Part shown: positions 42,082-57,516 of the stretch, in pieces
Numbering within the stretch: the first letter of the stretch is position 1
Layout: the number at the start of each line of letters is the position of its first letter
Assembly: GCF_013041615.1 (NCBI RefSeq)
Contig: NZ_JABEPQ010000005.1
Location: forward strand, 1 to 64,000
Length of the DNA: 64,000 bases
From: Knoellia koreensis
Lineage (GTDB): Bacteria > Actinomycetota > Actinomycetes > Actinomycetales > Dermatophilaceae
Reading direction: 5' to 3'
Translations under genes and position numbers: made by a program
Notes under the pieces: generated by a model
Databases searched by the model: none
What the model saw: the letters and a program-made list of their open reading frames with translations, nothing else
Told to the model about the DNA's origin: nothing

Positions 42082-42158
42082 GGCCAGGTAGCTCAGTTGG
42101 TACGAGCGTCCGACTGAAAATCGGAAGGTCGGCGGTTCGACCCCGCCCCTGGCCACCA
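42082..42158 (+). tRNA. tRNA-Phe (anticodon GAA), CCA encoded
   Basis: Acceptor GGCCAGG/CCTGGCC, D arm GCTCAGTTGGTACGAGC, anticodon loop CTGAAAA with GAA on CCGA/TCGG, T arm GGCGGTTCGACCCCGCC, discriminator A then CCA. Its 3' side borders the accessory region carrying copper genes, so it is a plausible integration target. Upstream, TATGAT near 42,022 may be its -10 box. Confidence 0.95.
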
Positions 42159-42308
42159 GTAAACCCGCAGGTCACGACGCTTCGGCACCGCCAGCACCTC
42201 CTTGCACTCGATGCGGCTGCTAACGAATTGCTAACTCTCTCCCATCGCAGGGTAGCAAGGTCAGGTTGGGCAGCCACCGGTCCATTCGGTTGCCTGCGGG
42301 CAATTGGC

Positions 42309-42424
42309 CATTACACCGACAGGGAGATCGCCGACGTCGTCGGCATCGTCGCCTTGAACGTGCTCACCGGCGACCCTCGACCTGGTTCGCCGGACTCCAT
42401 GCCGAAAAGACCGTAGGCCGTTGA
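42309..42424 (+). pseudogene. Remnant of a carboxymuconolactone decarboxylase/AhpD-like gene
   Basis: The 3' end of an AhpD/CMD-family gene: TDREIADVVGIVALNVLTG in one frame, then after a +1 shift DLV.GLHAEKTVGR and a stop at 42,422. Upstream sequence in 42,159-42,300 no longer matches the family, so the gene lacks its 5' part. The rest of 42,159-42,646 shows only the perfect palindrome GATCAGTACTGATC at 42,450-42,463 and the CsoR site. A decayed fragment beside a tRNA fits a past insertion or deletion. Confidence 0.65.
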
Positions 42425-42578
42425 CATCGCGGCAAACAAGACGGGCATGGATCAGTACTGATCATGTGCTGTGCCCTGGTCAAACCAGGTGGCGTCCGCC
42501 CTCGCGTCTTGAGAGCGCAGCGGCCCTCAGATGATGGTGACGGTGTCGCCAAGTTCCCTGGGGGGAAGGCTGGAGGGA

Positions 42579-42595
42579 ATACCGCTCCGGGGTAT
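42579..42595. promoter_or_regulatory. CsoR operator before csoR
   Basis: ATACC-GCTCCGG-GGTAT, a GC-centred dyad with the TACC/GGTA arms typical of CsoR boxes, lies 52 bases before the csoR start. It would let copper-free CsoR repress its own operon, and a downstream operon if transcription reads through. Confidence 0.75.
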
Positions 42596-42646
42596 GGTGT
42601 TAACGACAACGGCATCCAGCCGAGCGAGAACGACAGGAGCAGCCCG

Positions 42647-42964
42647 ATGGCGAGTCAGATCGAGGCACTGAACGAGACCCCGCACCACGGATACATCCAC
42701 CGCAAGGACGACTACCTGCGCCGGCTGCGCCGCATCGAGGGGCAGGCGCGGGGGCTGCAGCGGATGGTCGAGGACGAGCAGTACTGCATCGACATCCTCA
42801 CGCAGGTGTCGGCGATGACCAAGGCCCTGCAGTCGGTCGCACTCGGGCTGCTCGATGAGCACATGAGCCACTGCGTGGTCCGCGCAGCGGCAGCGGGTGG
42901 CACGGAGGCCGACGAGAAGATCAAGGAAGCCTCCGAGGCCATCGCCCGCCTCGTCCGATCGTGA
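42647..42964 (+). CDS. csoR: Copper-sensing repressor CsoR
   Basis: A 105-residue DUF156-family repressor. Copper ligands Cys47 (QYCIDI), His72 and Cys76 (EHMSHC) keep the Cys-x24-His-x3-Cys spacing of mycobacterial CsoR. Arg-rich helices (KDDYLRRLRRIEGQARGL) contact DNA. Cu(I) binding releases the operator. It heads the cluster csoR-copZ-secreted protein-copA, which continues into the complex-I-like genes with no clear terminator. A cluster of this type is a copper efflux regulon. Confidence 0.95.
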   Translation: MASQIEALNETPHHGYIHRKDDYLRRLRRIEGQARGLQRMVEDEQYCIDILTQVSAMTKALQSVALGLLDEHMSHCVVRAAAAGGTEADEKIKEASEAIARLVRS

Positions 42965-43019
42965 CAGATCAGCTGGACATCCCGTACGACCAGACCCATC
43001 AAAGGAAAGAGAGCACATC

Positions 43020-43226
43020 ATGAGCACCGCCACCTTCACCGTCGTCGGCATGACCTGCGGCCACTGCGTCAGCTCCGTGACCGAGGAAGTGACCGAGGTC
43101 GCCGGCGTCACCGATGTCGATGTCGACCTCGCCAGCGGTCGACTCACCGTCACCAGCGACATCGACATCGACGAGACCGCCGTCGTCGCCGCCGTCCAGG
43201 AGGCCGGCTACCAGGTCGCCACCTGA
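43020..43226 (+). CDS. copZ: CopZ-like copper chaperone
   Basis: A 68-residue HMA-domain protein with the MTCGHC motif (Cys13, Cys16) in a beta-alpha-beta-beta-alpha-beta fold. It carries Cu(I) to CopA. The ATG at 43,020 follows AAAGGAAAGAG. Length and motif are normal for the family. Confidence 0.95.
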   Translation: MSTATFTVVGMTCGHCVSSVTEEVTEVAGVTDVDVDLASGRLTVTSDIDIDETAVVAAVQEAGYQVAT

Positions 43227-43300
43227 CCGCCAACGAACGCACGACACCAGAGGCAGATCCCAGTAGTCGCCCTGCCACCTAGCCGAAGGAGTCCAGAACC

Positions 43301-44317
43301 ATGACGACCCCGCTCAAGGTCGGCGGTTTCGTCGCCACCCTGGCGGCCGTCTTCGCCCTCGCCATCGGTATCGGGCGCGTGGCTGGCCCGACCGATGCCG
43401 CTGCCCAACCCGCGCACGCGGAGAGGAGCAGCGGCAAGACGGCCGGCATGAACCACGGCGCCGACGGCATGTCGCGCGACGGCGGTGGCGCCGCGCCCAC
43501 GATTGCCTCGCTCCCCGGCGGGCTGATGGTCTCCGACTCCGGGTACACCTTCGACCTTGCCGAGCCCGCCCTGTCCGCGGGTAGGAGCACCCCGGTGAGC
43601 TTCCGCGTCCTGGGCCCTGACGGCGAGCCGGTCACCGACTACACGCAGACCCACGACAAGGAGCTGCACTTCATCGCCGTCCGACGCGACCTCAGCGGGT
43701 TCCAGCACCTCCACCCCACCAAGGGAGCCAACGGCCAGTGGAGCACGACCGTGGACCTCAGCCCCGGCACCTGGCGGTTCTTCGCCGACTTCGCCCCGGC
43801 CAAGGTCGGCCGGCCGATCACGCTCGGCGTCGACGCTGCGGTCCCCGGCACCTTCACCCCCAGCCCCCTGCCGCACCCCTCGCGTGCCAGCACCGTGGGT
43901 GACTACGCGGTCACCCTCGACGGCGCGCTGGTCCCGGGCCAGTCCTCGAAGCTCACCCTGACGGTGGCCAAGGGCGGCAATCCGGTGACGGACCTGCAGC
44001 CCTACCTCGCGGCATACGGCCACCTGGTCGCCCTGCGCGCCGGGGACCTGGCCTACCTGCACGTGCACCCCGACGGCGAGCCCGGTGATGGGCGCACCAA
44101 GGCGGGGCCACAGATCACGTTCCACGCCGAGGTGCCCTCCACCGGCGACTACCGGCTGTTCCTGGACTTCAAGCACGACGGGATGGTCCACACCGCGGAG
44201 TTCACCCAGAGCGCCACCGGCACCCCGAGCGCAGGCGACGCCACGACGCCCGCCCCCTCCGTCGACTCGACGAGCCCGTCACCGAGCTCGTCGGGGCACG
44301 CCGACCACAGCCACTGA
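43301..44317 (+). CDS. Secreted His-rich protein with duplicated HxHP domains
   Basis: A 338-residue protein with an N-terminal membrane anchor or signal (GGFVATLAAVFALAIGIG), then a Met/His stretch (GMNHGADGM). Two related beta domains follow, each ending in a His pair: ELHFIAVRRDLSGFQHLHP and HLVALRAGDLAYLHVHP. The C-terminus is Ser/Pro-rich ending GHADHSH. No enzyme motif. Placed between copZ and copA, with several His and Met clusters, it is probably an extracytoplasmic copper-binding or delivery protein. A FixH/YtkA-like relationship is possible. Confidence 0.75.
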   Translation: MTTPLKVGGFVATLAAVFALAIGIGRVAGPTDAAAQPAHAERSSGKTAGMNHGADGMSRDGGGAAPTIASLPGGLMVSDSGYTFDLAEPALSAGRSTPVSFRVLGPDGEPVTDYTQTHDKELHFIAVRRDLSGFQHLHPTKGANGQWSTTVDLSPGTWRFFADFAPAKVGRPITLGVDAAVPGTFTPSPLPHPSRASTVGDYAVTLDGALVPGQSSKLTLTVAKGGNPVTDLQPYLAAYGHLVALRAGDLAYLHVHPDGEPGDGRTKAGPQITFHAEVPSTGDYRLFLDFKHDGMVHTAEFTQSATGTPSAGDATTPAPSVDSTSPSPSSSGHADHSH

Positions 44318-44344
44318 CCGACACCCCAGCAGCAGGAGATGACC

Positions 44345-46657
44345 ATGACGTCCGTGCACCACCCACAGACCACGGCCGGGCCGGCAGGCAACCAGGTCGA
44401 GCTGGTGATCGGCGGAATGACCTGCGCCTCCTGTGCCAACCGGATCGAGCGCAAGCTCAACAAGCTCGACGGCGTCACGGCCACCGTCAACTACGCCACC
44501 GAGAAGGCCCGCGTGACCTACGCGGACGGCGTGGACCCCGATGCCCTCGTCACCACCGTGGCCCAGGCCGGCTACACCGCCACACTGCCCCAACCCAAAC
44601 AGGCGGACGCCGCCGAGACCGGCGACGGGCAAAACAGCACGAACGAGGCCGACCCGACCAGCTCGTTGCGCCAGCGACTCATCGTCTCAGCGGTGCTCAG
44701 CGTGCCGGTGATCGCGATGGCGATGGTGCCGGCGCTGCAGTTCACCTACTGGCAGTGGCTCTCCCTGACCCTCGCCGCCCCGGTCGTGGCGTGGGGGGCG
44801 TGGCCGTTCCACAAGGCGGCCTGGACGAACCTGCGCCACGCGACCTCCACCATGGACACCCTGATTTCCGTGGGCACCCTGGCCGCCCTCGGGTGGTCGT
44901 TGTACGCCCTGTTCTGGGGGACCGCCGGCATGCCCGGCATGCGGCACCCGTTCGAGCTGACGATCGCCCGCTCCGACGGCTCGGGCAACATCTATCTCGA
45001 GGCCGCGGCAGGGGTGACGACGTTCATCCTCGCCGGCCGCTACTTCGAGGCCCGCTCCAAGCGGCGTGCCGGCGCCGCCCTGCGCGCCCTGCTCGAGCTC
45101 GGCGCCAAGGAGGTCTCGGTCCTGCGCGACGGGCAAGAGGCACGCACCCCCGTCGACCAGCTCACGGTCGGGACGCGGTTCGTGGTGCGTCCCGGCGAGA
45201 AGATCGCCACCGACGGGGTCGTCGTCGACGGCTCGTCCGCCGTGGACAACTCGATGCTGACCGGCGAGTCCGTCCCGGTCGAGGTCGGACCCGGGGACAC
45301 CGTGGTCGGCGCCACCGTCAACGCCGGCGGGCGGATCGTGGTCGAGGCCACCCGTGTCGGCTCCGACACCCAGCTCGCGCAGATGGCGCGCCTGGTCGAG
45401 GACGCCCAGAACGGTAAGGCGCAGGCCCAGCGCCTGGCCGACCGGATCTCCGGCATCTTCGTGCCGATCGTCATCGCGCTCTCACTCGCCACCCTTGGGT
45501 TCTGGCTCGGCGCCGGCGCGGGGGCCGGGGCCGCGTTCACCGCCGCCGTCGCCGTCCTGATCATCGCCTGCCCCTGCGCCCTGGGCCTGGCCACACCGAC
45601 CGCGCTCATGGTCGGCACCGGCCGCGGCGCCCAGCTCGGCATCCTCATCAAGGGCCCAGAGGTCCTGGAGACCACCCGACGCGTCGACACCATCGTCCTG
45701 GACAAGACCGGCACCGTCACCACCGGTCAGATGACCCTGCTCGACGTTATCCCCGCCGAGGGAGTCGACACCGAGGAGCTGCTGCGCCTGGCCGGGGCCG
45801 TCGAGGACGCCTCCGAGCACCCGATCGCCCAGGCCATCGCCAAGGGCGCCACGGCCCGGATCGACGGCGCGTTGCCCCCGGTCGAGGACTTCCAGAACCT
45901 CGAGGGCGTCGGCGTCCAAGGCGTGGTGCTCGACGGCACCGACAGCCACGCCGTCCTCGTCGGCCGCCCCCGCCTGCTGGCCGACTGGTCGCAGGCGCTG
46001 CCTCCCGAGCTCGAATCGGCCATGACGGCTGCTGCCGACCAGGGGCAGACCGCCGTGGCCGTCGGCTGGGACGGCCGCGCCCGCGGCGTGCTCGTAGTCG
46101 CCGACGCTGTCAAGCCCACCTCGGCCCAGGCGATCAAGCAGCTCCGCGCCCTCGGCCTGACCCCGGTGCTGCTCACAGGCGACAACGCCACCGTCGCCAA
46201 CGCTGTCGCCACCCAGGTTGGCATCGACCCCGGCCCCGAGACCGTGATCGCCGAGGTCCTTCCGGCCGACAAGGTCGACGTGATCAAGCGGCTACAGGAG
46301 GCCGGCCGGTCCGTGGCCATGGTCGGCGACGGCGTCAACGACGCCGCCGCCCTCGCGCAGTCCGACCTCGGCCTGGCCATGGGCACCGGCACCGACGTCG
46401 CCATCGAAGCCTCCGACCTCACCCTGGTCCGGGGCGAGCTGCGGGCCGCGGCCGACGCGATCCGGCTGTCCCGGCGCACCCTCGGCACCATCAAGGGCAA
46501 CCTGTTTTGGGCGTTCGCCTACAACGTCGCCGCGCTGCCGTTGGCTGCGGCGGGGCTGCTCAACCCCATGCTCGCCGGCGCGGCGATGGCGTTCAGTTCG
46601 GTGTTCGTGGTCTCCAATAGCCTGCGGCTCAAGCGGTTCCGGACCTTGAACGACTGA
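44345..46657 (+). CDS. copA: Copper-exporting P1B-type ATPase CopA
   Basis: A 770-residue Cu(I) exporter: N-terminal HMA with GGMTCASC, eight membrane helices, CPC in [15 protein letters not shown], phosphorylation Asp in [13 protein letters not shown] motif, and [10 protein letters not shown]. The upstream ATG at 44,339 is only one base from the CAGGAG site, so the next ATG at 44,345 is the likely start. It pumps Cu(I) out with copper from CopZ. Forty-eight bases after its stop the complex-I-like genes begin. Confidence 0.95.
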
Positions 46658-46705
46658 CAGAGTGACATCGGGTCCACTGGGTAGGCAACCCTCACGGGAG
46701 GTGTG

Positions 46706-47044
46706 ATGTACCAAGGCGTCCTGGTCATGCTGGCCACCGCGGTGAGCGCGGTCGCCGTGGTGTGGCTCGTGCACCGGTGGGTCGCGGGACCGGCGCTGCA
46801 GGTGCTGCCCTTCCAATCCGGCTTGCTGCCGCAGGAGCACGCACTGTCGCGCTACCACGTGCGCTGGTACCTCGCCACGCTGCTGTTCCTCGCCTTCGAC
46901 GTGGAGATGCTTTTCATGTACCCGTGGGCCGTCGTCGTCGCCGACCTCGGCGCGTCCGCGGTGCTCGAGATGTTCCTGTTCCTCGGTGCACTGCTCGTGG
47001 CCGTCGTCTGGGCGTGGCGCGAAGGTGCGCTGCGGTGGGTGTGA
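46706..47044 (+). CDS. NuoA-like subunit of a complex-I-like membrane module
   Basis: A 112-residue three-helix membrane protein with the NuoA signature LLFLAFDVEMLFMYPWAVV, including the conserved Asp and Glu, and RYHVRWYL in the matrix loop. The ATG follows GGGAGGTGTG. In complex I, NuoA sits at the junction between peripheral and membrane arms near NuoH and NuoJ. Overlaps the next gene by GTGA. It is 48 bases downstream of copA with no terminator seen. Confidence 0.85.
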   Translation: MYQGVLVMLATAVSAVAVVWLVHRWVAGPALQVLPFQSGLLPQEHALSRYHVRWYLATLLFLAFDVEMLFMYPWAVVVADLGASAVLEMFLFLGALLVAVVWAWREGALRWV

Positions 47045-48438
47045 ACCAACTCCTGGCCCGGTATGCCGCGCGGCGGGCTCACGTGCTCGTCGTCGAGGTG
47101 CCGGGCTGCTGGACCCTGCGGGTCGCCGCGGAGCGTGGTGTCACCGACCGCGGATGGCAGGTGACGGGCACGCCCGCTGATGCGGACGCACTGTTGGTGT
47201 GCGGGTCACCGGGGGCGGACCTGATCGAGTTGGTGGACCGGGTGTGGGACCAGCTGCCCGGGCCGCGCGTCCGCATCGAACTCGAGGACATCGCAAACCT
47301 GGACGAGGCGCTCGAGTCGGCGGCCGCACAGTTGGCCGACATCGACCGGCACCGGAACGACGCACTCACCCGCCAGACATCGCCCGATCCCACAGGTGGC
47401 CACGAGACGGACGAGCACCGAGCTGATGAAGGCATGGACCACCACGCCCGTCATGAAGGCATGGACCACCACGCCCGTCATGAAGGCATGGACCACGCGG
47501 ACACAAGTCACGCCGGTCACGCCGGTCACGCCGGTATGCACCACGCGGGGATGGACCACTCCGGGCAAGAGATCATGGACCGCGGCGAGCACTCGTCCCC
47601 GGACCACTCGGCTCCCCAAGCCATGGACCGGTCCGGTCACGAGGTCATGGACCGCTCGGGTCACCAGGCCATGAGCCACGGCTCCGACGAGGGGATGGAT
47701 CACACCAGTCACGAAGGCATGGACCACTCCGGGCACGGTGGCATGGAGATGGCACCACACGGCATACCGCTGGCTGGGCGCGGCGAGGACCGCGACGGTC
47801 TGGAGATGGACGTGCTGCACCTGGCGCTGGGGCCGGTGCTTCGGTACTGGCCGGCGGGGCTGGTGCTCACGGTCGCCTTGCAGGGTGACCTGGTCGTCGA
47901 CGCCACGGTCGAGCTGCTGGAACAGACCCGCGGCTGCGATGACGGGGACGACGACCTGTCGGCGGCGACGGCGGCGCGGCTGGTCGACCACGCCGCAGAC
48001 GTGTTGGCGCTCTCGGGTTGGGCGGACGGGGCGTCGCGGGCGGCCCGGGTGCGTGACCTGCTGCTCGACGGGCGATCGGAGGAGGCCGAACTGGCGCTCC
48101 GGCGGCTGCATCGTCGGGTGGCGCGGTCCTGGCTGCTGCGCTGGTCGCTGCGCGGCGCCGGACGCCTGGACCGCCAGGTGCTCGACCGCCACGACCTGCC
48201 CGCGTGGCTGGAAGGCGACGCGTACGACCGGTTGCTGGCAATTCTCGATGGCACCCTGCTGGAGTCATTGCAGGACCGCGACGGGCACGGTGCCGCGCAG
48301 CCAGCAGGTGCGGCAACGGCCATGGTCCGGGCGCTTCCGCGCCTGGTTTCCGGTCTGGACCTTGCGGAGGTACGGCTGCTGGTGGCCAGCCTGGCCCTCG
48401 ACACCGCTGCCGTCCCGGCGGAGGCTCGGCATGGGTGA
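47041..48438 (+). CDS. Degenerate NuoB-like / His-Met-rich / NuoD-like fusion protein
   Basis: A 465-residue soluble protein. Residues 1-100 look like the NuoB fold (VPGCW, then DADALLVCGSPGADLIELVDRVWDQLPGP), but only Cys23 and Cys54 remain where NuoB has four ligands for cluster N2. Residues 121-240 are a linker with 25 His and 13 Met, built from MDHSGH and GMDHHARHE repeats. Residues ~255-465 begin like NuoD (MDVLHLALGPVLRYWP) and continue with NuoD-like helices, without quinone-site residues I can recognise. This order is that of the complex I connecting subunits. The linker suggests copper binding. The relation to NuoB/NuoD is by eye and only moderately sure; the metal linker is certain. 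Confidence 0.6.
   Translation: MNQLLARYAARRAHVLVVEVPGCWTLRVAAERGVTDRGWQVTGTPADADALLVCGSPGADLIELVDRVWDQLPGPRVRIELEDIANLDEALESAAAQLADIDRHRNDALTRQTSPDPTGGHETDEHRADEGMDHHARHEGMDHHARHEGMDHADTSHAGHAGHAGMHHAGMDHSGQEIMDRGEHSSPDHSAPQAMDRSGHEVMDRSGHQAMSHGSDEGMDHTSHEGMDHSGHGGMEMAPHGIPLAGRGEDRDGLEMDVLHLALGPVLRYWPAGLVLTVALQGDLVVDATVELLEQTRGCDDGDDDLSAATAARLVDHAADVLALSGWADGASRAARVRDLLLDGRSEEAELALRRLHRRVARSWLLRWSLRGAGRLDRQVLDRHDLPAWLEGDAYDRLLAILDGTLLESLQDRDGHGAAQPAGAATAMVRALPRLVSGLDLAEVRLLVASLALDTAAVPAEARHG
47426..47536 (+). repeat. In-frame tandem repeats coding the His/Met-rich linker
   Basis: A 27-base unit (ATGAAGGCATGGACCACCAC...) is present almost three times from 47,426, followed by a nine-base unit (GTCACGCCG) repeated from 47,507. 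Both keep the reading frame, so strains may differ in linker length. Confidence 0.85.
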
Positions 48439-49411
48439 GCCGATGGTGAGCGGCGTGACAACGGTGGCCGCCGGGTGGGCCGTCTTCGCGGCAGTGCTGT
48501 TGGGTCTGCTTGCGTTGTTCGCGGCGGCCCTCGACGGCGTGGCCACGGCTCGCGCCGAGCGGAGCGTTGCCGCCGGGGGCGGGGGCCGGCCCGGGGGCGG
48601 GAGGCGCGGTCTCGCGGTGCCGCTGCTGGAGGCGGCGCGGCTGCTGCGGCAGTGCCGTCGGGTGCCGGTGGCCAGCGACGTCCTGCTGTGGCGGGTCGGT
48701 GTCGCTGGCCTGCCGGTGCTGGCGCTGCTGATGGTGGCGGTGGTGCCGCTGGGTCGGTGGACCCTGTTCGACCTGCCGGTCGGAGTGGTGTGGTTCAACG
48801 CCATGGACGTCGCCGTCTGGGCTGCGGTCTGGCTGGCCGGGTGGGGCCCGAACTCGGCGCATTCGCTGGTCGGCGGGTACCGGTTCCTCGCCTACGGGTT
48901 GGCGTACGAGCTGCCGCTGATGTTCGCGCTCGTCGCTCCTGCGGTGGCGGCGAAGAGCCTGCGGGTGGGTGACATCGCCGCGGCGCAGGACGGGCTGTGG
49001 TTCGCGGTCTGGATGCCGGTGGCGTTCCTCATCTACTGCATGGGGGCGCTGGCGTTCTCGGTGTGGGGGCCCTTCTCGCCGGCCCTGGGCGCCGACGTCG
49101 CCGGCGGGGTGAGCGCGGAGCTGTCCGGCGCCGACCGGCTGCTGCTCCTGGCTGGACGGTATGCGCTGCTCGCGGCCGGGGCGGCGTTCGCGGTGCCGCT
49201 GTTCCTCGGCGGCGGCGCCGGGCCGCTGCTGCCGGCATGGGCGTGGAGCCTGCTCAAGACGGTGGTGCTGCTGGCGGTGCTGGTGCTGCTGCGCCGCCGG
49301 TTGCCGGCGGTTCGGCCGGACCGGTTCATGGAGGTCGGGTGGCTGATCCTCCTGCCGGCGGCGCTGCTGCAGGACCTCGTTATCGCCCTTGTCGCAATTG
49401 GGAGGCAGTGA
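48431..49411 (+). CDS. NuoH-like subunit of the complex-I-like module
   Basis: A 326-residue membrane protein with about eight helices. The NuoH region SLVGGYRFLAYGLAYELPLMFALV keeps the Arg-x...-Glu pattern of the first quinone-linked loop; ALAFSVWGPFSP occupies the later loop position. NuoH normally forms the quinone chamber and links to NuoB/NuoD. The N-terminal ~70 residues carry a Gly-rich cytoplasmic insertion (AGGGGRPGGG). Overlaps its neighbours on both sides. Confidence 0.8.
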   Translation: MGEPMVSGVTTVAAGWAVFAAVLLGLLALFAAALDGVATARAERSVAAGGGGRPGGGRRGLAVPLLEAARLLRQCRRVPVASDVLLWRVGVAGLPVLALLMVAVVPLGRWTLFDLPVGVVWFNAMDVAVWAAVWLAGWGPNSAHSLVGGYRFLAYGLAYELPLMFALVAPAVAAKSLRVGDIAAAQDGLWFAVWMPVAFLIYCMGALAFSVWGPFSPALGADVAGGVSAELSGADRLLLLAGRYALLAAGAAFAVPLFLGGGAGPLLPAWAWSLLKTVVLLAVLVLLRRRLPAVRPDRFMEVGWLILLPAALLQDLVIALVAIGRQ

Positions 49412-49974
49412 TGGTCCTCGACGTGGGGTTCTGGGTGGTCGCCGTCGTCGCGGTCGCCTCGGGTGCGGCGGTGTTCATCGTCGACTCGATGGCCCGCGCC
49501 ACCTACGCGTTGGCCCTGTCGTTCATCGCCGTCGGGGTGGCGGTGCTGATGCTGCGCCAGGACTACGTCGGCGTCATCACCATCCTGATGATGGTCATGG
49601 AGATGGCCGTGATGGCGGTCTACATGGTCATGTTCATGGGGATGAACCCGGCGCTGATGCCGATGAGCATGGTCCACGACAACCGCCGCGCAGTGGGCGC
49701 CGCCGTCGCGACGTTCGTGGTGCTCGGCGCCGGCGCCCTGCTGATCCCGTGGCCGACCCGGCGTGGCGCGCCACCGGCCGACCCGACCCGGGCACTAGGT
49801 GAGGCACTGATGGGACCGCACATGCTGGCCATGGTCGTCATCAGCCCGGTCATGGTCGCCACCATCGTGGCCGGGGTGGTACTCGCAGCGCACCGCACCC
49901 GCTACGACCGGTTCGGTGACGACCTGCGCCGGCGCCCGGCCCGCGACCCGCGACGCGGAGGGGTGGGCCGATGA
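49411..49974 (+). CDS. NuoJ-like subunit of the complex-I-like module
   Basis: A 187-residue membrane protein with about five helices. Its ALALSFIAVGVAVLMLRQDYVG matches the NuoJ third-helix region where the pi-bulge and Tyr lie, followed by a Met-rich helix (ILMMVMEMAVMAVYMVMFMGM) that is unusually dense in Met. Starts one base inside the previous stop after GGGAGGCAG. Confidence 0.8.
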   Translation: MVLDVGFWVVAVVAVASGAAVFIVDSMARATYALALSFIAVGVAVLMLRQDYVGVITILMMVMEMAVMAVYMVMFMGMNPALMPMSMVHDNRRAVGAAVATFVVLGAGALLIPWPTRRGAPPADPTRALGEALMGPHMLAMVVISPVMVATIVAGVVLAAHRTRYDRFGDDLRRRPARDPRRGGVGR

Positions 49975-50273
49975 CCCTGCAGACCGTCCTCCTGATGGCC
50001 GCGGCGCTCTTCAGCGTCGGGCTCTACGGCGCGATCTCCCAGCAGGTCGTCGTCATGGTGATGATGGGCCTCGAGCTCATGGTCAACGGCGTCATCCTCG
50101 CCGCCGCAGGCTTCTGGTGGTTCCTGGCCCCCAACCCAGACGGGCAGGTGCTGCTCATGGTGATCATCGCGGCGATGACGGTCGAGATGGCCATGGGGTT
50201 CGCCGTGGCCACACTGCTGCACCGTGAGCACGGCACCGACATGACCGACATGGCGGGTGACCTGTCGCAATGA
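49971..50273 (+). CDS. NuoK-like subunit of the complex-I-like module
   Basis: A 100-residue three-helix protein. MMGLELMVNGVILAAAGF keeps the NuoK membrane Glu (second helix), and EMAMGFAVATLLHRE keeps the second Glu-containing helix. These carboxylates belong to the proton channel at the E-channel start. Linked by ATGA to both neighbours. Confidence 0.88.
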   Translation: MTLQTVLLMAAALFSVGLYGAISQQVVVMVMMGLELMVNGVILAAAGFWWFLAPNPDGQVLLMVIIAAMTVEMAMGFAVATLLHREHGTDMTDMAGDLSQ

Positions 50274-52186
50274 ACACCCTTGCCACAACTGCCTTCTCGA
50301 CCGCCTTGTCGACCCCCGCATCGACCGCGGGAGCGCCGGCCGCCGCCGCTTTGTTGGTGCTCGTGCTGCTGCCCGCCGTCGTCGGTGCCACCCTGGCCTG
50401 GACCCGTCCAGGCCGCCGGTCGGCCAACACCGCATCCTTGGCCACCGCCGCCATTGCACTCGGGCTGTCGGTGTGGGCCGCCGTTGCCCGGCCGGCCGTG
50501 TCCGTGCCGTTCATGGCCGACGCCGACTTCGGGATGCGGGTCGACGGCCTGGCCGCCCTCGTGGCGCCGGTGGTCAGCGCGGTGACCCTGCTGGTGCTCA
50601 TCTTCGCGGTCGGTGACATCAAGGAGTCACAGGGCCGCTTCCACGGGCTGATGCTGCTGTTCGCCTCTTCGGTGTCGCTGACCGTGACCGCCACGACGCT
50701 GCCCATTCTGCTCATGGCGTGGGAGGTGATGGGCGCAACCTCCTACGCCCTCATCGGGTTCCGATGGCAAGAGCAGCACCGGATGTCGGCCGGCCTAACC
50801 GCGTTCCTCACCACCCGGGCCGGTGACCTGGGCCTGTACCTGGCCGCGGGCGCCGCCCTCGCCGGTGGCTCAGGCCTGGCGCTTTCCGACCTCTCCGCAG
50901 CCGACGACCCGTGGCGTCAGGTCGCCGCCGCCGGCATCGTCGTGGCCGCGCTCGGCAAGGCCGCGCAGCTGCCGTTCTCATTCTGGCTGTCGCGGGCGAT
51001 GGCGGGACCGAGCGCGGTGAGCGCGCTGCTGCACTCCGCGGCGATGGTCGCGATGGGCGGATACCTCCTGCTGCGGGTGCAGCCGCTACTGGCCACCACC
51101 CCGGGCGTCGCCACCGCCACCGCGTGGCTGGGTGTCGCCAGTGCGGTGGTCCTCGGCGTCGTCGCGCTCGCCCAGACCGACCTCAAGCAACTGCTTGCCG
51201 CGTCCACCGCCGCCCAGCTCGGGTTCGTGGTCCTCGCCGCGGGGGTCGGTGCGGTCGCGGGCGGCGCCGCGCACCTCGTCGCGCACGCGGCCACCAAGGC
51301 GTTGCTGTTCCTCGCCGCCGGGGCGTGGCTGACCGCGCTGGGCACCAAGCGGCTCGAGGCGTTGGCGGGTGTCGCCGGCCGGTGGCCGGTGGTCGGCTGG
51401 TCGGCGACGCTCGGCGCGGTGGCCCTGGCCGGCATACCCCCACTGTCTTTGTGGGCCACCAAGGACGCGGTCCTCGCCGCGGCTGCCGAGCACTCGGTGT
51501 GGCTGTATGCCGCGGGGCTCGCTGCGTCAGTGATCTCCGGCGGCTACGCCGGCCGCATCGTCGTGGTGATCTGGCGGGGTGAGCGCGGCGCGGACCCCGC
51601 CGGCTCGGCCGCGCATCTTGACGAGGAGGAGCCCGGCACGCGGGTGGTCGGCTGGTGGCAGCAGGCACCCACGCTCGTCCTTGCCGTCGGAGCGGTTGGC
51701 CTCGGCGTCCTCGCCCTGCCCCCGCTCGCCGCGCGCCTAGCCAGTGACCTCGGTCAGCCCGACGAGCAGGTGTCCGCGGCAGGCCTGGTCGTCGGCGGCG
51801 CCCTCTCCCTGGCCGCATTGCTGGCCGTGATGCGCTGGCCGGTGCCACGACCCGGCTGGGCGCTGGACTGGCTGGGCCTCGAGCGGGCCGCGCACGCCAC
51901 TCTCGTACAACCGACGATGCGACTCGCCGCCGTGCTCGCGCGGTTCGACGACGCGGTGTTCGACCGGGCCGTCGAGCGAATCGCCCACGCCACCATGGCC
52001 GCTGGCGCGTGGTCCGCGCGGTTCGACCTGCGACGGGTGGACGCCGCGGTCGAGGCGGTCGCGGCGCGCACCCGAGCGCTCGGACGGGTCGCGCGACGCC
52101 CCCAGACCGGGCAGCTGCACCAGTACTACCTGCAGTCCGTCGCCGTCCTGGCCGTCGGTCTCGTCCTCCTGCTGACGGTGAGGTGA
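50270..52186 (+). CDS. NuoL-like proton-translocating subunit
   Basis: A 638-residue antiporter-like subunit. The membrane Glu is in MAWEVMGATSYALIGF, the central Lys in GKAAQLPFSFWLSRAMAGPS, and the terminal Lys in LWATKDAVLAAA. HSAAMVAMGGYLLLR and HAATKALLFLAAGAW hold the conserved His and Lys of the central chain. A C-terminal part (from ~residue 520) extends like the NuoL lateral helix. Charged pump residues look intact, so it should be capable of proton transfer. Confidence 0.9.
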   Translation: MNTLATTAFSTALSTPASTAGAPAAAALLVLVLLPAVVGATLAWTRPGRRSANTASLATAAIALGLSVWAAVARPAVSVPFMADADFGMRVDGLAALVAPVVSAVTLLVLIFAVGDIKESQGRFHGLMLLFASSVSLTVTATTLPILLMAWEVMGATSYALIGFRWQEQHRMSAGLTAFLTTRAGDLGLYLAAGAALAGGSGLALSDLSAADDPWRQVAAAGIVVAALGKAAQLPFSFWLSRAMAGPSAVSALLHSAAMVAMGGYLLLRVQPLLATTPGVATATAWLGVASAVVLGVVALAQTDLKQLLAASTAAQLGFVVLAAGVGAVAGGAAHLVAHAATKALLFLAAGAWLTALGTKRLEALAGVAGRWPVVGWSATLGAVALAGIPPLSLWATKDAVLAAAAEHSVWLYAAGLAASVISGGYAGRIVVVIWRGERGADPAGSAAHLDEEEPGTRVVGWWQQAPTLVLAVGAVGLGVLALPPLAARLASDLGQPDEQVSAAGLVVGGALSLAALLAVMRWPVPRPGWALDWLGLERAAHATLVQPTMRLAAVLARFDDAVFDRAVERIAHATMAAGAWSARFDLRRVDAAVEAVAARTRALGRVARRPQTGQLHQYYLQSVAVLAVGLVLLLTVR

Positions 52187-53679
52187 CCGTGCTCTCCCTG
52201 ATCGTGTTCCTGCCTCTGGCCGCAGCCGTGGTCCTGCTCACGCTGCCACGCCTGAGCGACGCCGCCGCGCGGTGGGCCTGGGTGGTCGCCGCCAGCGTCG
52301 ACCTGGCGCTGGTGCTGGTCGCGTGGGCCCGCTACAACGCGCCCGCGCCCGGTCAGCTCGCGCTGGAGGAGCAGACCCGCTGGATCCCCGGGGTGGACAG
52401 CCGCTACCACCTCGGCGTCGACGGGCTGTCACTGCCGCTGGTCGTGATGACCGCCGTGCTGTTCCTCGCCTGCGCCGTCTACGCGCTACGCGAGCGGAAC
52501 CGGCCGCGGCTGCAGGCGGTGCTGTTCCTGTTCCTGCAGTCGGTCAGCCTGGGCCTGTTCACCTCGGCCGACCTCATCCTGTTCTTCGTCTTCTTCGACC
52601 TGTCCATCGTCGGCATGTACTTCGTCATCGCCGGCTGGGGCCACGGCGACGCGGCCCGCTCGGCGCTGAAGTTCTTCCTCTACACCTTCCTCGGCTCCCT
52701 CGCCCTGCTCGCCGGGTTCATCGGCCTGTACGTCGGCGCCGACCCGCACACCTTCGACATACTCCAGCTCACCGCCCACCCGCCCTTGGCCGACCACCCC
52801 GTCACCGGCGCCCTCGTGCTGGGCGCCATCCTGCTCGGACTCGCGGTCAAGACCCCCACGGTGCCGTTCCACACCTGGCTGCCACCGGCGCACACCGACG
52901 CCCCCGCGATCGGATCGGCCATCCTGGCCGGGGTGCTGCTGAAGATGGGCACCTACGGGTTCGTCCGGATCGGGATGCCACTGCTGCCCGACGCCTGGCG
53001 CGCCTGGGCCTGGGTGATCGTGGCCGTCGGCGTCGTGTCCGTTCTCTACGGCGCGCTGGTGGCGCTCGCCCAGGACAACCTCAAGCGGATGATCGCCTAC
53101 ACCTCCGTCAACCACATGGGCTACATCGTCCTGGCCGTCGGCGTCGCGGGCGTGATTGCCCCCGACACCGCCCAAGCCCGCTCGGTCGCAGTCACCGGCG
53201 CGGTCACCCAGATGGTCAGCCACGGCCTGGTCACCGGCGCCCTGTTCCTGCTCGCCGGGGTGATGCAGGACCGCGCCGGCACCTACGACATGCGCAACTA
53301 CGGCGGGCTCGCCGCCCCCGCGCCACGGATGGCCTGGCTGTTCGCGGTCGGCGCGTTCGCCTCGCTCGGCCTGCCCGCCCTGTCCGGGTTCATCGCCGAG
53401 TTCCAGGTCTTCACCGGCAGCATCGCCGCCGCCCCCGTCACCGCCGTCGCGCTGCTCGGGATCCTCATCACCGCAGCACTGTTCCTCCGCGCGCTGCAGC
53501 GGATCTTCACCGGGGACACCATCGGTGCGTCACGCGGGTTCACCGACCTGCACCCGTCCGAAACCTGGTCGGTCGGCCTACTGCTGGTGCTGTCGCTGGT
53601 GATCGGGCTGCTGCCGCGCACCCTGCTCTACCTGATCGAACCCGCCGGCCGCGCCGCCATCACCCTGGTCGGGAGGTGA
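52183..53679 (+). CDS. NuoM-like proton-translocating subunit
   Basis: A 498-residue antiporter-like subunit. Proton-path residues: central Lys in VKTPTVPFHTWLPPAHTDAP, Lys in GVLLKMGTYG, Glu in GFIAEFQVF, and His in SVNHMGYIVL. The first-channel Glu of standard NuoM is an Asp here (LFFVFFDLSIVGMYF). GTG start overlapping nuoL as GTGA; a GTG six bases later is possible. Confidence 0.9.
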   Translation: MTVLSLIVFLPLAAAVVLLTLPRLSDAAARWAWVVAASVDLALVLVAWARYNAPAPGQLALEEQTRWIPGVDSRYHLGVDGLSLPLVVMTAVLFLACAVYALRERNRPRLQAVLFLFLQSVSLGLFTSADLILFFVFFDLSIVGMYFVIAGWGHGDAARSALKFFLYTFLGSLALLAGFIGLYVGADPHTFDILQLTAHPPLADHPVTGALVLGAILLGLAVKTPTVPFHTWLPPAHTDAPAIGSAILAGVLLKMGTYGFVRIGMPLLPDAWRAWAWVIVAVGVVSVLYGALVALAQDNLKRMIAYTSVNHMGYIVLAVGVAGVIAPDTAQARSVAVTGAVTQMVSHGLVTGALFLLAGVMQDRAGTYDMRNYGGLAAPAPRMAWLFAVGAFASLGLPALSGFIAEFQVFTGSIAAAPVTAVALLGILITAALFLRALQRIFTGDTIGASRGFTDLHPSETWSVGLLLVLSLVIGLLPRTLLYLIEPAGRAAITLVGR

Positions 53680-53682
53680 CCG

Positions 53683-55116
53683 GTGGGCTCGATGGCGATG
53701 CGCCCACTGCTCCTGCTGCCCGAGATGCTGCTGTTCGCAGCCGGGCTCGCGGTCCTGCTCGGCGGCTCGTTCCTGCCCCGACAACGCCAATGGGTCAGCC
53801 GGGTGGTCGCCGGGGCGGCCCTGGTGGTCAGCATCGCGATCTCCGCCGTCGCGCTGGCCGGTCCCGCCTCGGCCGCGTTCGAGGGCGCCTACGCCGTCGA
53901 CACCGGCACCGGCGTCGCCCGCATCGTCGCCGCATTCGGCACCCTGCTCATCCTGCTGCTCGCCGGCGACGAGCTGACCGGGTCGCCGCGCGAGAGCGAC
54001 ACCTACGCGCTGCTGCTGTTCTCCACGACCGGCACCATCATCCTGGCCGGCGCCCAGGACCTCATCGTCCTGGCCGCCGCGTTCCTGCTGGCCAGCATCC
54101 CGCTCTACGGGCTGGTCGGGATGGCCCGCGGGCCACGCGCTGCCGAGGCGGCCATGAAGACCTACCTCATGGGCGCCCTGTTCGGGATCGTCCTGCTGCT
54201 CGGCGTGACGATCCTGTACGCCGTGGCCGCCAGCTCGCGTTACGCCGACCTCCCCGCTGGGCTGGGTGCGGTGGCGCCGGCCGCGGTCGCGGCCGGGCTG
54301 CTCGCGGTGCTGGCCGGGCTGCTGTTCGAGGCCGGCGGTGTGCCGGCACACTTCTGGGTGCCCGACGCCACCGAGGGCGCCAGCTCGACCGTCGCGACGT
54401 TCCTGACCACGATCCCCAAGATCGGGGCGCTCATCGCCGCCTACCGGCTAGTAACGGTCATGCCCGACACGCTCGCATGGCCGCTGCTCGTCGCGGTCCT
54501 CGCGACGGCCAGCATGACGCTGGGCAACCTCGCCGCCTACGGCCAGCGCGACCCGAGGCGGCTGCTCGGCTGGTCCACGGTCAGCCAGGTCGGGTACCTG
54601 CTCGTCCCGGTTGCGGTCGCGGGTCGCTCCGAGCTGGCCCTGCCGTCCCTGTTCTTCTACCTCGCGGCCTACACGGTCACCAACATCGCGGCCTTCGCCG
54701 TCGCCGGTGCGCTGCCCGACCGACGCGACCTCGCGGCATACGCCGGCCTGTCCCGCCACGCCCCATGGCTCACCGCGGCCCTCGTCGTGTCCCTGCTCGG
54801 ACTGACAGGCACGCCGCCCACCGGCGTGTTCGTCGGCAAGCTCACCACCGCCACCGCCGCCTGGGACGGCGGCATGGCCTGGCTCGCGGTCGTCGTTCTG
54901 CTCAACAGCGTGGCCAGCCTCTTCTACTACCTATCCTGGATCGCGCCAGCCTTCCGGGTCGCCAACCGACACGACGTCGGCGGACGGTCGTCGTCCTTGG
55001 CACTGCCATGGTCGACCTGGACTGCAGTGAGCGCCGCCGCCTTGAGCCTCGCCGTCGGCATCGCGGGCGGCCTGCTGTGGCACGTCATTGACGGAGCCCT
55101 GGGCGTGGCACCCTGA
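53683..55116 (+). CDS. NuoN-like subunit with altered pump residues
   Basis: A 477-residue antiporter-like subunit closest to NuoN: PAHFWVPDATEGASS, TTIPKIGALIA, GQRDPRRLLGWSTVSQVGYLL and LTGTPPTGVFVGKL. Compared by eye with standard NuoN, the Lys before VPFHxW is Glu here (FEAGGVPAHFW) and the helix-5 Glu (LELLSLSLY) is replaced in FLLASIPLYGL. Lys in TIPKIG and VGKL are kept. The GTG follows GGGAGG. Last gene of the row; after it comes non-coding DNA. Confidence 0.87.
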   Translation: MGSMAMRPLLLLPEMLLFAAGLAVLLGGSFLPRQRQWVSRVVAGAALVVSIAISAVALAGPASAAFEGAYAVDTGTGVARIVAAFGTLLILLLAGDELTGSPRESDTYALLLFSTTGTIILAGAQDLIVLAAAFLLASIPLYGLVGMARGPRAAEAAMKTYLMGALFGIVLLLGVTILYAVAASSRYADLPAGLGAVAPAAVAAGLLAVLAGLLFEAGGVPAHFWVPDATEGASSTVATFLTTIPKIGALIAAYRLVTVMPDTLAWPLLVAVLATASMTLGNLAAYGQRDPRRLLGWSTVSQVGYLLVPVAVAGRSELALPSLFFYLAAYTVTNIAAFAVAGALPDRRDLAAYAGLSRHAPWLTAALVVSLLGLTGTPPTGVFVGKLTTATAAWDGGMAWLAVVVLLNSVASLFYYLSWIAPAFRVANRHDVGGRSSSLALPWSTWTAVSAAALSLAVGIAGGLLWHVIDGALGVAP

Positions 55117-55448
55117 CAAGACAGGTGCACTTTCGGCGAACGTGGACGTTGCGTCCAGTTCGGTGCACCCAATCCCTTCCGCCAGGCCCCTCCAGCGACA
55201 ATTGGCCCTTGGCGGCACCCACACGGTGACCATCCCACGCTCGACAACCTCCGGGTCCAACGACATGACGCAGGCCCGGCGACCGCGGGCCAACCGGCAA
55301 GGGGCGCCGGGTGGTCCCATGACTGGCAACCCAGGTGGTCCCATGAAGCTGGCAGATAACCGCTCACCGCGGTCCTATGCTCATGCTAGGCGACAGCCCG
55401 CATCGGGGGTGCAGCCCTTGAACCGCCCATGCGGGTCGCCCAGAGGTG
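55117..55448. other. Non-coding junction after the complex-I-like operon
   Basis: About 330 bases without a supported gene. It contains two direct copies of GGTGGTCCCATGA, 24 bases apart, at 55,311-55,347. I recall similar repeated GGTGGTCCCA sequences flanking IS21-type elements in actinobacteria, so this may be a decayed insertion-sequence end; that is memory, not proof. No clear terminator stem is visible right after nuoN. Confidence 0.4.
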
Positions 55449-56945
55449 TCATCTCTCGCAGCGCGAGGTGGGACGGCCCGTGGACATGCTGTTGAGCGTT
55501 CGGTCTTGTATAGCCCGACCACGACGCGCGCTTGGTTCACCATCCTGACTGGTCCGCCTGTCCTGTGCGGGCACAGGGTCGAGGGAAGCTGCGGCGCTCA
55601 TGGCTGTCCTGTTGGCGTCGATGAGGTTGTCTGCGGCCACCGTGAGGCAGGAGCGGACGTGGTCGGGCAGGGGGACGGCTCTGTTGGTCAGGAGGTCGCG
55701 TGGCGTGACCCGGGCCGCGAGGGGGCTGTCATCGATGGTTTGGGGGTCGCGTGGGTCGTGCCACCGCGTGGCGATTGCCAGCCTGTTGACGGCTTGCGCG
55801 GCTCCGGTCAGTTCTGGGTTGGTGGTGGCGTCATGGGTGGCGTGGGCCAGGTCGAGGTTGGTGGCCAGCACCCTTTGAGAGAGTCGGCCGATCCGACTCA
55901 AGTCGGTCCTTTGGGCGATGACTGAGGCGTGGGCGATGGTTGTGCCGTCCCGGAGAAGCTCGTGCAGCGCGGCCCGGGTCTCGAGGGCTGCGCTGGCGAG
56001 GTCGGGGTCGACGCGGCGTGAGGTCGGCGGCGTGAGGTCCTTCCAGAGGCCGGCCATGGTCTCCCAGCGTTCCTGACTCATTTCCAGAGCGGGGGAGAGA
56101 CGGGTCGTGTACTGCTGCCGGTCGAGCTGTCCGGAGTCTGCGGCGACGCGCGTCAGGGTGTTGACCGCGGTGAGAACCAAGGATTGGGTCCGGGCGGTGA
56201 GCATGAGATCGGCGGTGTCGACCCTGACGGCCAGGGTCCGGTGGGCCTGGACGTCCCAGGTAGCCAGGGCCTGTGCGAGCCGTCCGGTGGCGGCTGGCTC
56301 GCGGTGTTCCCCCGCCAGCGCGCGGGGGTAGGTGCATGCGAGGACGGCGCCGGCCTGCTGCTCGAACGCGGTAAGCCGCGCGTGTGCAGCGCGGGCGTGC
56401 CGAAGTGAGTCCCCGGTGGTCAGCCCGCGTCGGCTGGCCATCTTCATCTCCAGCTCGCGCACCCGCTGCCTGACGGCGACGGCAACCCCGTGGGAGCCGA
56501 TGTAGAGGGTGTGCATGATCCGGGTCCTGGCTGCCTGCAGGTCGCGCCGTTCGGGGTCGCTGAGCGGGGGCCGAGGGGTGGCGTGCCCGCTGATCAGGTC
56601 GGCTGCGCGGGTGAAGCTCTCGGCGATGCGCAGGAGGCGCTCGTCTGGAGGCCCGTCGCCTGGCCAGGCCCGGCCGCGTCCGGTGCGATGCATGGCTTCG
56701 CTCATCGCCTGAAGCTGTTGGATCGCGAGGTCTGCGGAGTCGGGGAGATGCTCCCCGGTGCCCGGCTGGATCGGGGTCACCGGCGGCAGGGCCTGCCAGA
56801 GTTCGCTGGCGGCCTGGACGACCTCGCCCCAGGTGCGCAGCATCGGAGCCGCGTCCATCTCGTCGACGTCCATCAGGATCGCTCTGGCGGTGTGGTCGGA
56901 CTCGAGGAGGAGTTCGCCGACGCTGCGCTTGTCCCTGCCGGTCAC
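55449..56945 (-). CDS. Hypothetical helical protein of mobile-element type
   Basis: A 498-residue soluble, mostly alpha-helical protein rich in Ala, Arg and Thr, with no signal or membrane segments and no recognised motif. Short polar segments separate long amphipathic helices (HARAAHARLTAFEQQAGAVL, LDLAHATHDATTNPELTG). Proteins with this look occur in actinobacterial integrative and plasmid DNA. It overlaps the upstream small gene by four bases, so the two are a pair. Function unknown. Confidence 0.65.
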   Translation of the reverse strand: MTGRDKRSVGELLLESDHTARAILMDVDEMDAAPMLRTWGEVVQAASELWQALPPVTPIQPGTGEHLPDSADLAIQQLQAMSEAMHRTGRGRAWPGDGPPDERLLRIAESFTRAADLISGHATPRPPLSDPERRDLQAARTRIMHTLYIGSHGVAVAVRQRVRELEMKMASRRGLTTGDSLRHARAAHARLTAFEQQAGAVLACTYPRALAGEHREPAATGRLAQALATWDVQAHRTLAVRVDTADLMLTARTQSLVLTAVNTLTRVAADSGQLDRQQYTTRLSPALEMSQERWETMAGLWKDLTPPTSRRVDPDLASAALETRAALHELLRDGTTIAHASVIAQRTDLSRIGRLSQRVLATNLDLAHATHDATTNPELTGAAQAVNRLAIATRWHDPRDPQTIDDSPLAARVTPRDLLTNRAVPLPDHVRSCLTVAADNLIDANRTAMSAAASLDPVPAQDRRTSQDGEPSARRGRAIQDRTLNSMSTGRPTSRCER

Positions 56946-57289: not shown

Positions 57290-57481
57290 CATGGCGGTCT
57301 CCTTGTTCGTGAGAGGTGTGCAACCCAATCCACTCAGATCCCGGTGCGGCGCGTGAGGCCCGCTCCTGAGCCTGGGGATGACGTCGCCGGGGTGTCGTAG
57401 GTGGGGATGACACTGCTCTCGTAGGCCTTATGGCCACCGGTGCCGCTCTGGAGGTCAGCACCGGCCGCAATCGAGATGTTC

Positions 57482-57491
57482 GCACTAGTGC
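57482..57491. promoter_or_regulatory. Palindrome GCACTAGTGC before the chimeric gene
   Basis: A perfect 10-base palindrome in the gap between two divergent genes, 26 bases before the GTG at 57,517. Flanking GATGT and ACATC form a second, off-centre pairing. Possible operator. Confidence 0.4.
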
Positions 57492-57516
57492 ACATCGACT
57501 CGAGAAGGAGGTAACG

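Follow-up and report, generated by a model that had tools for sequence, protein, structure and literature searches.

A complex I-like gene module that follows a csoR-copZ-copA operon in Knoellia koreensis: a candidate proton-coupled copper system

A 64,000-nucleotide stretch of the Knoellia koreensis genome (contig NZ_JABEPQ010000005.1, positions 1 to 64,000; here called the window) carries a continuous run of open reading frames (ORFs), all on the + strand, in which csoR-copZ-ytkA-copA leads into nuoA-X-nuoHJKLMN, a module of seven genes resembling those for membrane subunits of respiratory complex I, plus a gene that we call X. The run begins with csoR (42647..42964; PF02583, E = 9e-30), for a copper-sensing repressor with the C...H...C residues that we take to be the CsoR motif. 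It is followed by genes for a CopZ-like HMA copper chaperone (43020..43226; PF00403, E = 3.1e-18), for a YtkA-like protein with a His-containing C terminus (43301..44317; PF13115, E = 5e-4, below cut-off) that is probably secreted, as judged by eye from its N terminus, and for CopA, a P1B-type copper ATPase with a CPC motif and an N-terminal CxxC (44339..46657). The module itself comprises nuoA-like (46703..47044), gene X, a NuoB-like/NuoD-like fusion recognized from relatives, profiles, and structure comparison (47041..48438), nuoH-like (48431..49411; PF00146, E = 1.4e-44), nuoJ-like with a methionine ladder (49411..49974), nuoK-like (49971..50273), nuoL-like, for an antiporter-type subunit (50270..52186), nuoM-like, also above the TIGR01972 cut-off (52183..53679), and nuoN-like (53683..55116). 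CsoR, CopZ, CopA, and all seven Nuo proteins scored above their Pfam cut-offs, and the best NCBIfam models for NuoL and NuoN were those of NDH-1. The gene order and coordinates reported in the initial annotation of this stretch hold.

Genes overlap by 1 to 8 bases from nuoA through nuoM, with nuoN starting 3 bases past the end of nuoM. The end of copA at 46657 and the start of the nuoA frame (GTG at 46703 or ATG at 46706) leave a gap of 45 or 48 bases, in which the initial annotation had seen no terminator; simple consensus scans likewise found neither a terminator-like hairpin nor a sigma-70-like promoter there, and the sole terminator-like match in 42300-55600 lies on the opposite strand, inside copA. 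A CsoR-operator-like palindrome, TACC-N7-GGTA, is located 67 bp before the csoR ATG (42580..42594, no strand assigned), and the pattern TACC-N4-8-GGTA occurs twice in the window. The run may be a CsoR-controlled regulon with a single transcript through nuoN. A full nuo operon lies elsewhere in the same genome (A, B, C/D, E-I, and K-N matched in locus L130; J at contig 10, position 112047), and the module is therefore an extra set. Contig 10 also holds a further nuo set that is only partial (L129), where NuoA, B, H, I, L, M, and N and a fragment of C/D were matched, and, distant from it, a lone NuoD-like gene (L131).

The X protein consists of a NuoB-like region (about residues 1-118), a linker (119-245) with 25 His, 13 Met, and no Cys, and a NuoD-like region (246-462); its AlphaFold model shows two confident domains flanking a low-confidence stretch at 119-245. 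The window X gave no credible Pfam match and a single weak match to NuoB (TIGR01957, E = 0.0048), and its two ends, proposed at the outset, were confirmed mainly through its relatives, with profile and Foldseek comparisons in addition. For the NuoB end, 49 of 65 X relatives matched TIGR01957 at E ≤ 0.01, a profile-profile comparison of X with three NuoB sequences scored 95.6% (E = 1.2e-8), and the X profile recovered the genuine NuoB of the K. koreensis genome (E = 2.1e-6). For the NuoD end, comparison of the C-terminal half of the window X with three NuoD sequences, by sequence only, was weak (E = 0.087); its identity is nonetheless settled, because PF00346 was matched above cut-off by 9 of 10 divergent X proteins. 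Foldseek returned four matches at E ≤ 0.001 (best E = 3.9e-4), to chains whose names we take to denote the 49-kDa/NuoD subunit, and the 50 matches listed were complex I-type entries and one formate hydrogenlyase.

The cysteines at the positions we presume to hold cluster N2 in NuoB are not kept in X. The only near-invariant cysteine of the X family, C54, pairs with an alanine of Escherichia coli NuoB in the profile alignment, and several X proteins have no cysteine at all; the window X has three, at 23, 54, and 299, and no CxxC. The X consensus has GPVLPxWPAG in place of the NuoD loop GPxHPxxHG, with HPxxH lost. A group 4 [NiFe] hydrogenase or formate hydrogenlyase-type complex was ruled out, as the nickel-binding CxxC pairs are missing from X. 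No signal peptide was seen by eye in X, which, by analogy with the place of NuoB and NuoD in complex I, would sit on the cytoplasmic side.

The initial annotation had reported that genes for NuoC, E, F, G, and I are missing, leaving no ordinary electron donor. This finding extends beyond the window: tblastn (E ≤ 1e-4) across 140 loci with the module or its remnants gave no match to these subunits inside the module, and the sole NuoG-like match was a formate dehydrogenase about 5 kb beyond it (L233). Residue conservation was then scored against an E. coli reference in 87 to 90 orthologs, excluding those below 60 bits (A, J, and K) or 150 bits (the others); the E. coli residue numbers and their roles in the proton path and quinone site are those we presume. 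Among the proton residues, NuoK E36 (90/90) and E72 (87/90), NuoL E144 (87/88), K229 (88/88), and K399 (86/88), NuoM K234 (86/87), K265 (87/87), and E407 (87/87), and NuoN K247 and K395 (both 87/87) are kept, as are NuoA D79/E81 and NuoH E157/E228 in nearly all orthologs. The quinone-site region of NuoH has changed, with R37 mostly G, A, or S, D213 mostly A or S, and E216 mostly L or A. Plain complex I was rejected because the redox residues are gone, and a relict complex I was rejected because conservation is strong despite that loss.

NuoJ of the window contains a ladder of methionines at positions 27, 60, 61, 63, 65, 68, 72, 76, 78, 83, 85, 87, 134, 138, and 141, together with H89. Of 91 module sequences, 84 to 90 have the Met or His at each of these ladder positions, compared with none of 29 ordinary NuoJ proteins (29 of the 30 fetched were usable); M74 is common to both. 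A second set, which included Rubrobacter-type, deep actinobacterial, and proteobacterial members, had 12 NuoJ Met/His positions filled in 47 of 48 module members versus 0 of 33 ordinary sequences, and four NuoK methionines in 43 to 48 of 48 versus 0 to 1 of 33. In the window, NuoK M29, M31, M69, and M73 lie near the kept proton glutamates E36/E72, and NuoA H46, H52, M69, and M72 are present in 90 of 90 orthologs. Met is enriched in NuoJ and NuoK but not in NuoL, NuoM, or NuoN; the ladder is therefore not a general composition effect. In the structural model of NuoJ, transmembrane helix 3 (TM3) spans residues 51-76 at low confidence (predicted local distance difference test [pLDDT] score of only 64.6), which places eight methionines (M74 included) inside TM3 and five Met/His residues in the next loop, with M134, M138, and M141 close to where the last long helix begins. 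By the positive-inside rule, the Met/His loop after TM3 should face the cytoplasm.

A metal-binding segment is found in nearly all modules, but its place varies within the family. We sorted 109 modules into 82 with a His-rich X (at least 13 His, a threshold chosen after the X compositions had been seen), 13 with an HMBD-type motif in X, and 14 with a His-poor X. A C-terminal NuoJ tail with at least 5 His was present in 9 of the 14 modules with a His-poor X (at least 4 His in 10 of 14) but in only 1 of the remaining 95 (p = 4e-9, with kinship between loci ignored); four of the 14 had neither the tail nor the X segment. Rubrobacter-type X proteins matched Pfam HMBD (PF19335) above cut-off in 7 of 7 cases, and the X of L222 weakly matched the CusB model (E = 0.0069). 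We read this relocation as a sign of selection for what may be a cytoplasmic metal-loading segment, regardless of its point of attachment.

Of 186 family genomes, 40 contained a relative of X, a count that includes K. koreensis itself and two weak matches; 13 of 53 genera are represented. No relative was found in the 10 other same-genus genomes listed, which suggests that the module was gained laterally in K. koreensis. In a phylum-wide sample, 235 of 396 genomes matched, mostly through ordinary NuoB; of the 32 at E ≤ 3.9e-9, 17 were inspected and all 17 carry the module, while a further inspected region, L229, proved to be an ordinary nuo set. A pattern-based scan of named genomes yielded 265 relatives; the 80 best, two Lysobacter among them, were retained. 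The gene order A-X-H-J-K-L-M-N recurs and is conserved in Actinomycetota and Pseudomonadota. Plasmid copies, some of them broken, occur in Mycobacterium, Arthrobacter, Pseudarthrobacter, Ornithinimicrobium, Curtobacterium, Rhodococcus, Gordonia, Pseudonocardia, and Rubrobacter, as well as in Roseivivax, Acuticoccus, Halomonas, Paracoccus, Sulfitobacter, Nitratireductor, Roseovarius, and Thioclava. In a tree of NuoJ+K+L, 48 module members, a chosen set, formed one clade apart from 33 ordinary sequences with a support of 1.0, and the clade persisted after all methionines had been masked. Judged from these sequence comparisons, the module is a mobile, conserved family separate from ordinary complex I.

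Copper genes beside the module were counted with two sets: a strict set of CsoR, CopZ, CPC-type CopA, and multicopper oxidase, chosen partly after the neighbors had been seen, and a broad set that adds DUF305, YtkA, CueR, and sulfocyanin, chosen after they had been seen. Twenty module regions of 20 kb, picked from the 40 matching genomes and mostly from long contigs, were compared with one arbitrary 20-kb region per genome on the same contig. A gene of the strict set was present in 11 of 20 module regions versus 0 of 20 controls (Fisher, 7e-5) and one of the broad set in 15 of 20 versus 0 of 20 (Fisher, 4e-7). A strict-set gene also occurred in 34 of 50 full-length named loci (broad set, 36), in 47 of all 80 named loci, some of them incomplete (broad set, 51), in 17 of 25 annotated plasmid stretches, and in 10 of 17 regions of the phylum-wide sample, including 6 of 7 of the Rubrobacter type. 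Some loci are related (e.g., L036/L116, L041/L045, L043/L236, L083/L084, and L085/L102), so the counts given here for module loci are not independent. The closest match to the window arrangement is Rubrobacter tropicus, where DUF305, a P-type ATPase, a metal-sensitive regulator, a copper-binding protein, and nuoA-X-H-J-K-L-M-N run in one direction. At 22 of 90 loci, a TACC-N4-8-GGTA box is present in the 350 bp before nuoA; the corresponding rates were 1.9% for random segments and 1.6% for shuffles. CsoR operators have been described as G-tract pseudopalindromes (PMC3902906). The association with copper genes noted in the initial annotation thus recurs in two phyla, if not at every copy. The copper link of the module is strong, and copper is very probably involved in its function in some way.

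Several copies have surroundings of their own. Upstream of nuoA, Lysobacter (L080, 8491-9138), Paracoccus (L238, 8693-9379), and Roseovarius (L241, 8693-9379) have a DUF6629 gene, and on a Halomonas plasmid nuoN is followed by genes with the ergothioneine annotations egtB and egtD (L233, 23063-25335). The annotation of Martelella mediterranea shows just nuoA and a portion of X, beside an ISL3 transposase and a copper cluster (L235, 14636-17203). On the Mycobacterium avium plasmid pMAH135 (L034, 13660-21802), all eight genes are open frames, and a P-type ATPase and a copZ-like gene are found about 3 kb off, behind an IS110-like element. In the window, a protein matching an F510_1955-type gene of an Arthrobacter plasmid by BLAST, with no Pfam match, is encoded at 57430-58416 and a MerR-family regulator at 58573-58992; both recur near the module in other loci. 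A tRNA-Phe gene, a usual type of integration site, is located at 42082-42158, about 490 bases upstream of csoR, and when an island with attachment repeats was considered, no direct repeat of the tRNA-Phe end was reported across 42060-64000.

Because the electron-handling parts have been replaced by a metal-binding protein and methionines line one membrane subunit, the module probably moves or senses copper by means of proton flow rather than respiring. Our favored interpretation, to which we give an even chance, is proton-driven Cu(I) export by a complex I-derived membrane complex; a proton-coupled metal role was one of three ideas offered in the initial annotation, and it gains support here. 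NuoA, X, and NuoHJKLMN would assemble into one membrane complex, a descendant of the complex I proton-pumping arm, with copper handling in place of quinone and iron-sulfur (Fe-S) chemistry. Under copper excess, CsoR would free the operon, by release from the operator-like site observed upstream of csoR, to which it presumably binds. X would then bind Cu(I) through its His/Met linker, a job done in relatives by the HMBD domain or the His-rich NuoJ tail. From X, Cu(I) would pass to the Met-rich NuoJ loop and on to the TM3 ladder, flanked by Met and His of NuoK, NuoA, and NuoH, along the region that forms the E-channel in complex I. Its movement would be coupled to protons via the Lys/Glu chain of NuoK, NuoL, NuoM, and NuoN, so that proton influx would power Cu(I) export alongside CopA. 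One-complex assembly, Cu(I) as the ligand, transport, its stoichiometry, and its direction are all putative at this stage. Stated in full, the proposal is that this mobile and hitherto unrecognized complex I branch of two phyla has turned its proton arm into a Cu(I)/H+ antiporter, its Fe-S/quinone module into a cytoplasmic copper-loading subunit, and its E-channel into a Met-lined copper path, a statement that we hold tentatively and at slightly less than even chance.

A number of observations weigh against Cu(I) export. No broad-set gene was found in the stretch covered at 14 of 50 full-length named loci, and the strict set was missing from 7 of 17 phylum-wide regions and from 8 of 25 plasmid stretches (L038, L039, L040, L042, L046, L238, L239, and L242). 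These plasmid stretches include Gordonia, Rhodococcus pyridinivorans, Pseudarthrobacter, Paracoccus, Sulfitobacter, and Thioclava, and two of them, L038 and L042, hold module remnants only. The Lysobacter copy examined had no gene of the broad set and a CDF cation-efflux gene nearby instead. The proton chain is not fully intact, as NuoM E144 is Asp in 87 of 87 orthologs, NuoN E133 is lost (86 of 87 orthologs have Leu or Phe there), and Glu replaces NuoN K217 in the window protein and in 18 of 87 orthologs; the fixed changes at NuoM E144 and NuoN E133 could tune the coupling. To these are added the low confidence of the NuoJ model, the suitability of Met/His segments for Ag(I) as well, the presence of CopA, already a Cu(I) exporter, and the chance that the methionine ladder serves as a static sensor or carries electrons.

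Of the other explanations, the one that survives best, although we consider it unlikely, is a copper-gated proton device, in which X and the methionine ladder would sense Cu(I) and gate proton flow through NuoL, NuoM, and NuoN without copper being transported. Such a device could, for example, safeguard or tune the proton gradient when copper is in excess, and it would account for the metal-binding segments, the methionines near the NuoK glutamates, and the retention of most proton residues; in complex I, too, the gating of the proton channels depends on what happens at the interface of NuoB, NuoD, and NuoH. The eight methionines of TM3 (M74 shared with ordinary NuoJ) and the five Met/His residues of the loop exceed what a sensor site would need, however, and additional methionines (M134, M138, and M141) lie close to the beginning of the last long helix.

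Transport of Na+/H+ or H+ for salt or pH, with the copper genes as fellow passengers on resistance plasmids, leaves the methionine ladder, the HMBD and His-rich segments, and the CsoR-like boxes before nuoA unexplained, and many hosts are non-marine by name and by what we presume of their ecology. It is improbable to us on these grounds, even though copper genes are missing at the 14 full-length loci mentioned above, several proteobacterial hosts are marine, and "marine adaptation" is the published interpretation of these genes in Salinispora, Kocuria, and Streptomyces (PMC3314556, PMC6002675, PMC4018334).

A copper-based redox pump, in which electrons passing via a copper site in X or the methionine ladder would replace Fe-S cluster N2 and drive proton pumping, appears quite improbable. 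Multicopper oxidases, cytochromes c, and DsbA-family proteins are found among the neighbors, along with CcdA- and TlpA-like clusters recognized by eye near the module, but such redox proteins are usually extracytoplasmic, and X has no signal peptide by eye. Loss of the NuoH quinone-site residues and of the NuoD HPxxH loop also argues against this idea, as does the lack of a conserved cysteine set in X. Finally, a decaying, functionless relict of complex I is barely credible, since members from different phyla share the gene order and most of the proton residues and fall in a single clade with a support of 1.0, despite the weak similarity of X to NuoB/NuoD and the broken state of some copies (L035, L038, and L235).

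The proposal of proton-coupled Cu(I) export bears on an old question, that of how proton movement through complex I is driven by what happens at its quinone site. If the proposal is true, the module would be a relative in which the proton machinery is kept and the redox end is swapped for metal binding, so that coupling would be triggered by copper and not by electrons. It would also represent a new class of bacterial copper handling, found on plasmids in marine proteobacteria as well as in actinobacteria from the environment and the clinic, and would offer an alternative, testable reading for genes until now filed under marine adaptation. Three observations go beyond the initial annotation: the NuoJ/NuoK methionine ladder, the loss of Fe-S and quinone features with the proton residues kept, and the movable metal-binding segment.

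The seven genes nuoAHJKLMN have been described in the three papers cited above as a partial NDH-1 operon, the "second partial NDH-1 operon" of Penn and Jensen 2012 (PMC3314556). One of the strains listed with the partial operon in PMC6002675 is Kocuria marina SO9-6, which was isolated from a copper mine. It carries the module (L106) with DUF305 upstream, and through this strain the seven genes could be matched to ours. As far as their accessible text goes, these papers treat the seven genes as ion pumping for seawater, with X, the methionine ladder, and the adjacent copper genes unmentioned; the word copper has 0 occurrences in the main text of PMC3314556 and PMC4018334. Among the matches listed from the PMC literature, where some queries were very broad and subscription journals lay mostly outside, neither X nor a copper role of the module was described. 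The view of the initial annotation that no system of this composition had been described thus needs correction for seven of the eight genes, already in print as the partial NDH-1 operon, and stands, within these sources, for X and the copper link.

Among well-known systems, respiratory complex I (NDH-1) is the nearest, with homologous NuoA, H, J, K, L, M, and N, most proton residues kept, and NuoB- and NuoD-like domains in X. The module differs from it in having no NuoC, E, F, G, or I, no N2 cysteines, and changed quinone-site residues, and in adding the methionine ladder in NuoJ and NuoK and a metal-binding segment. Mrp Na+/H+ antiporters are likewise built of complex I-related antiporter-type subunits without a redox arm, but their gene set differs from NuoA/H/J/K/L/M/N plus X; all eight ORFs in 46703-55116 were assigned otherwise, and NuoL, NuoM, and NuoN best matched NDH-1 models. 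The HMBD domain (PF19335) of CusB and some P-type ATPases is the same domain as in Rubrobacter-type X, where it sits between the NuoB- and NuoD-like domains rather than in an efflux adaptor or ATPase. The first four genes of the window run, lastly, are of the same kind as those of csoR-copZ-copA resistance operons, from which the operon described here differs in continuing into a complex I-like module.

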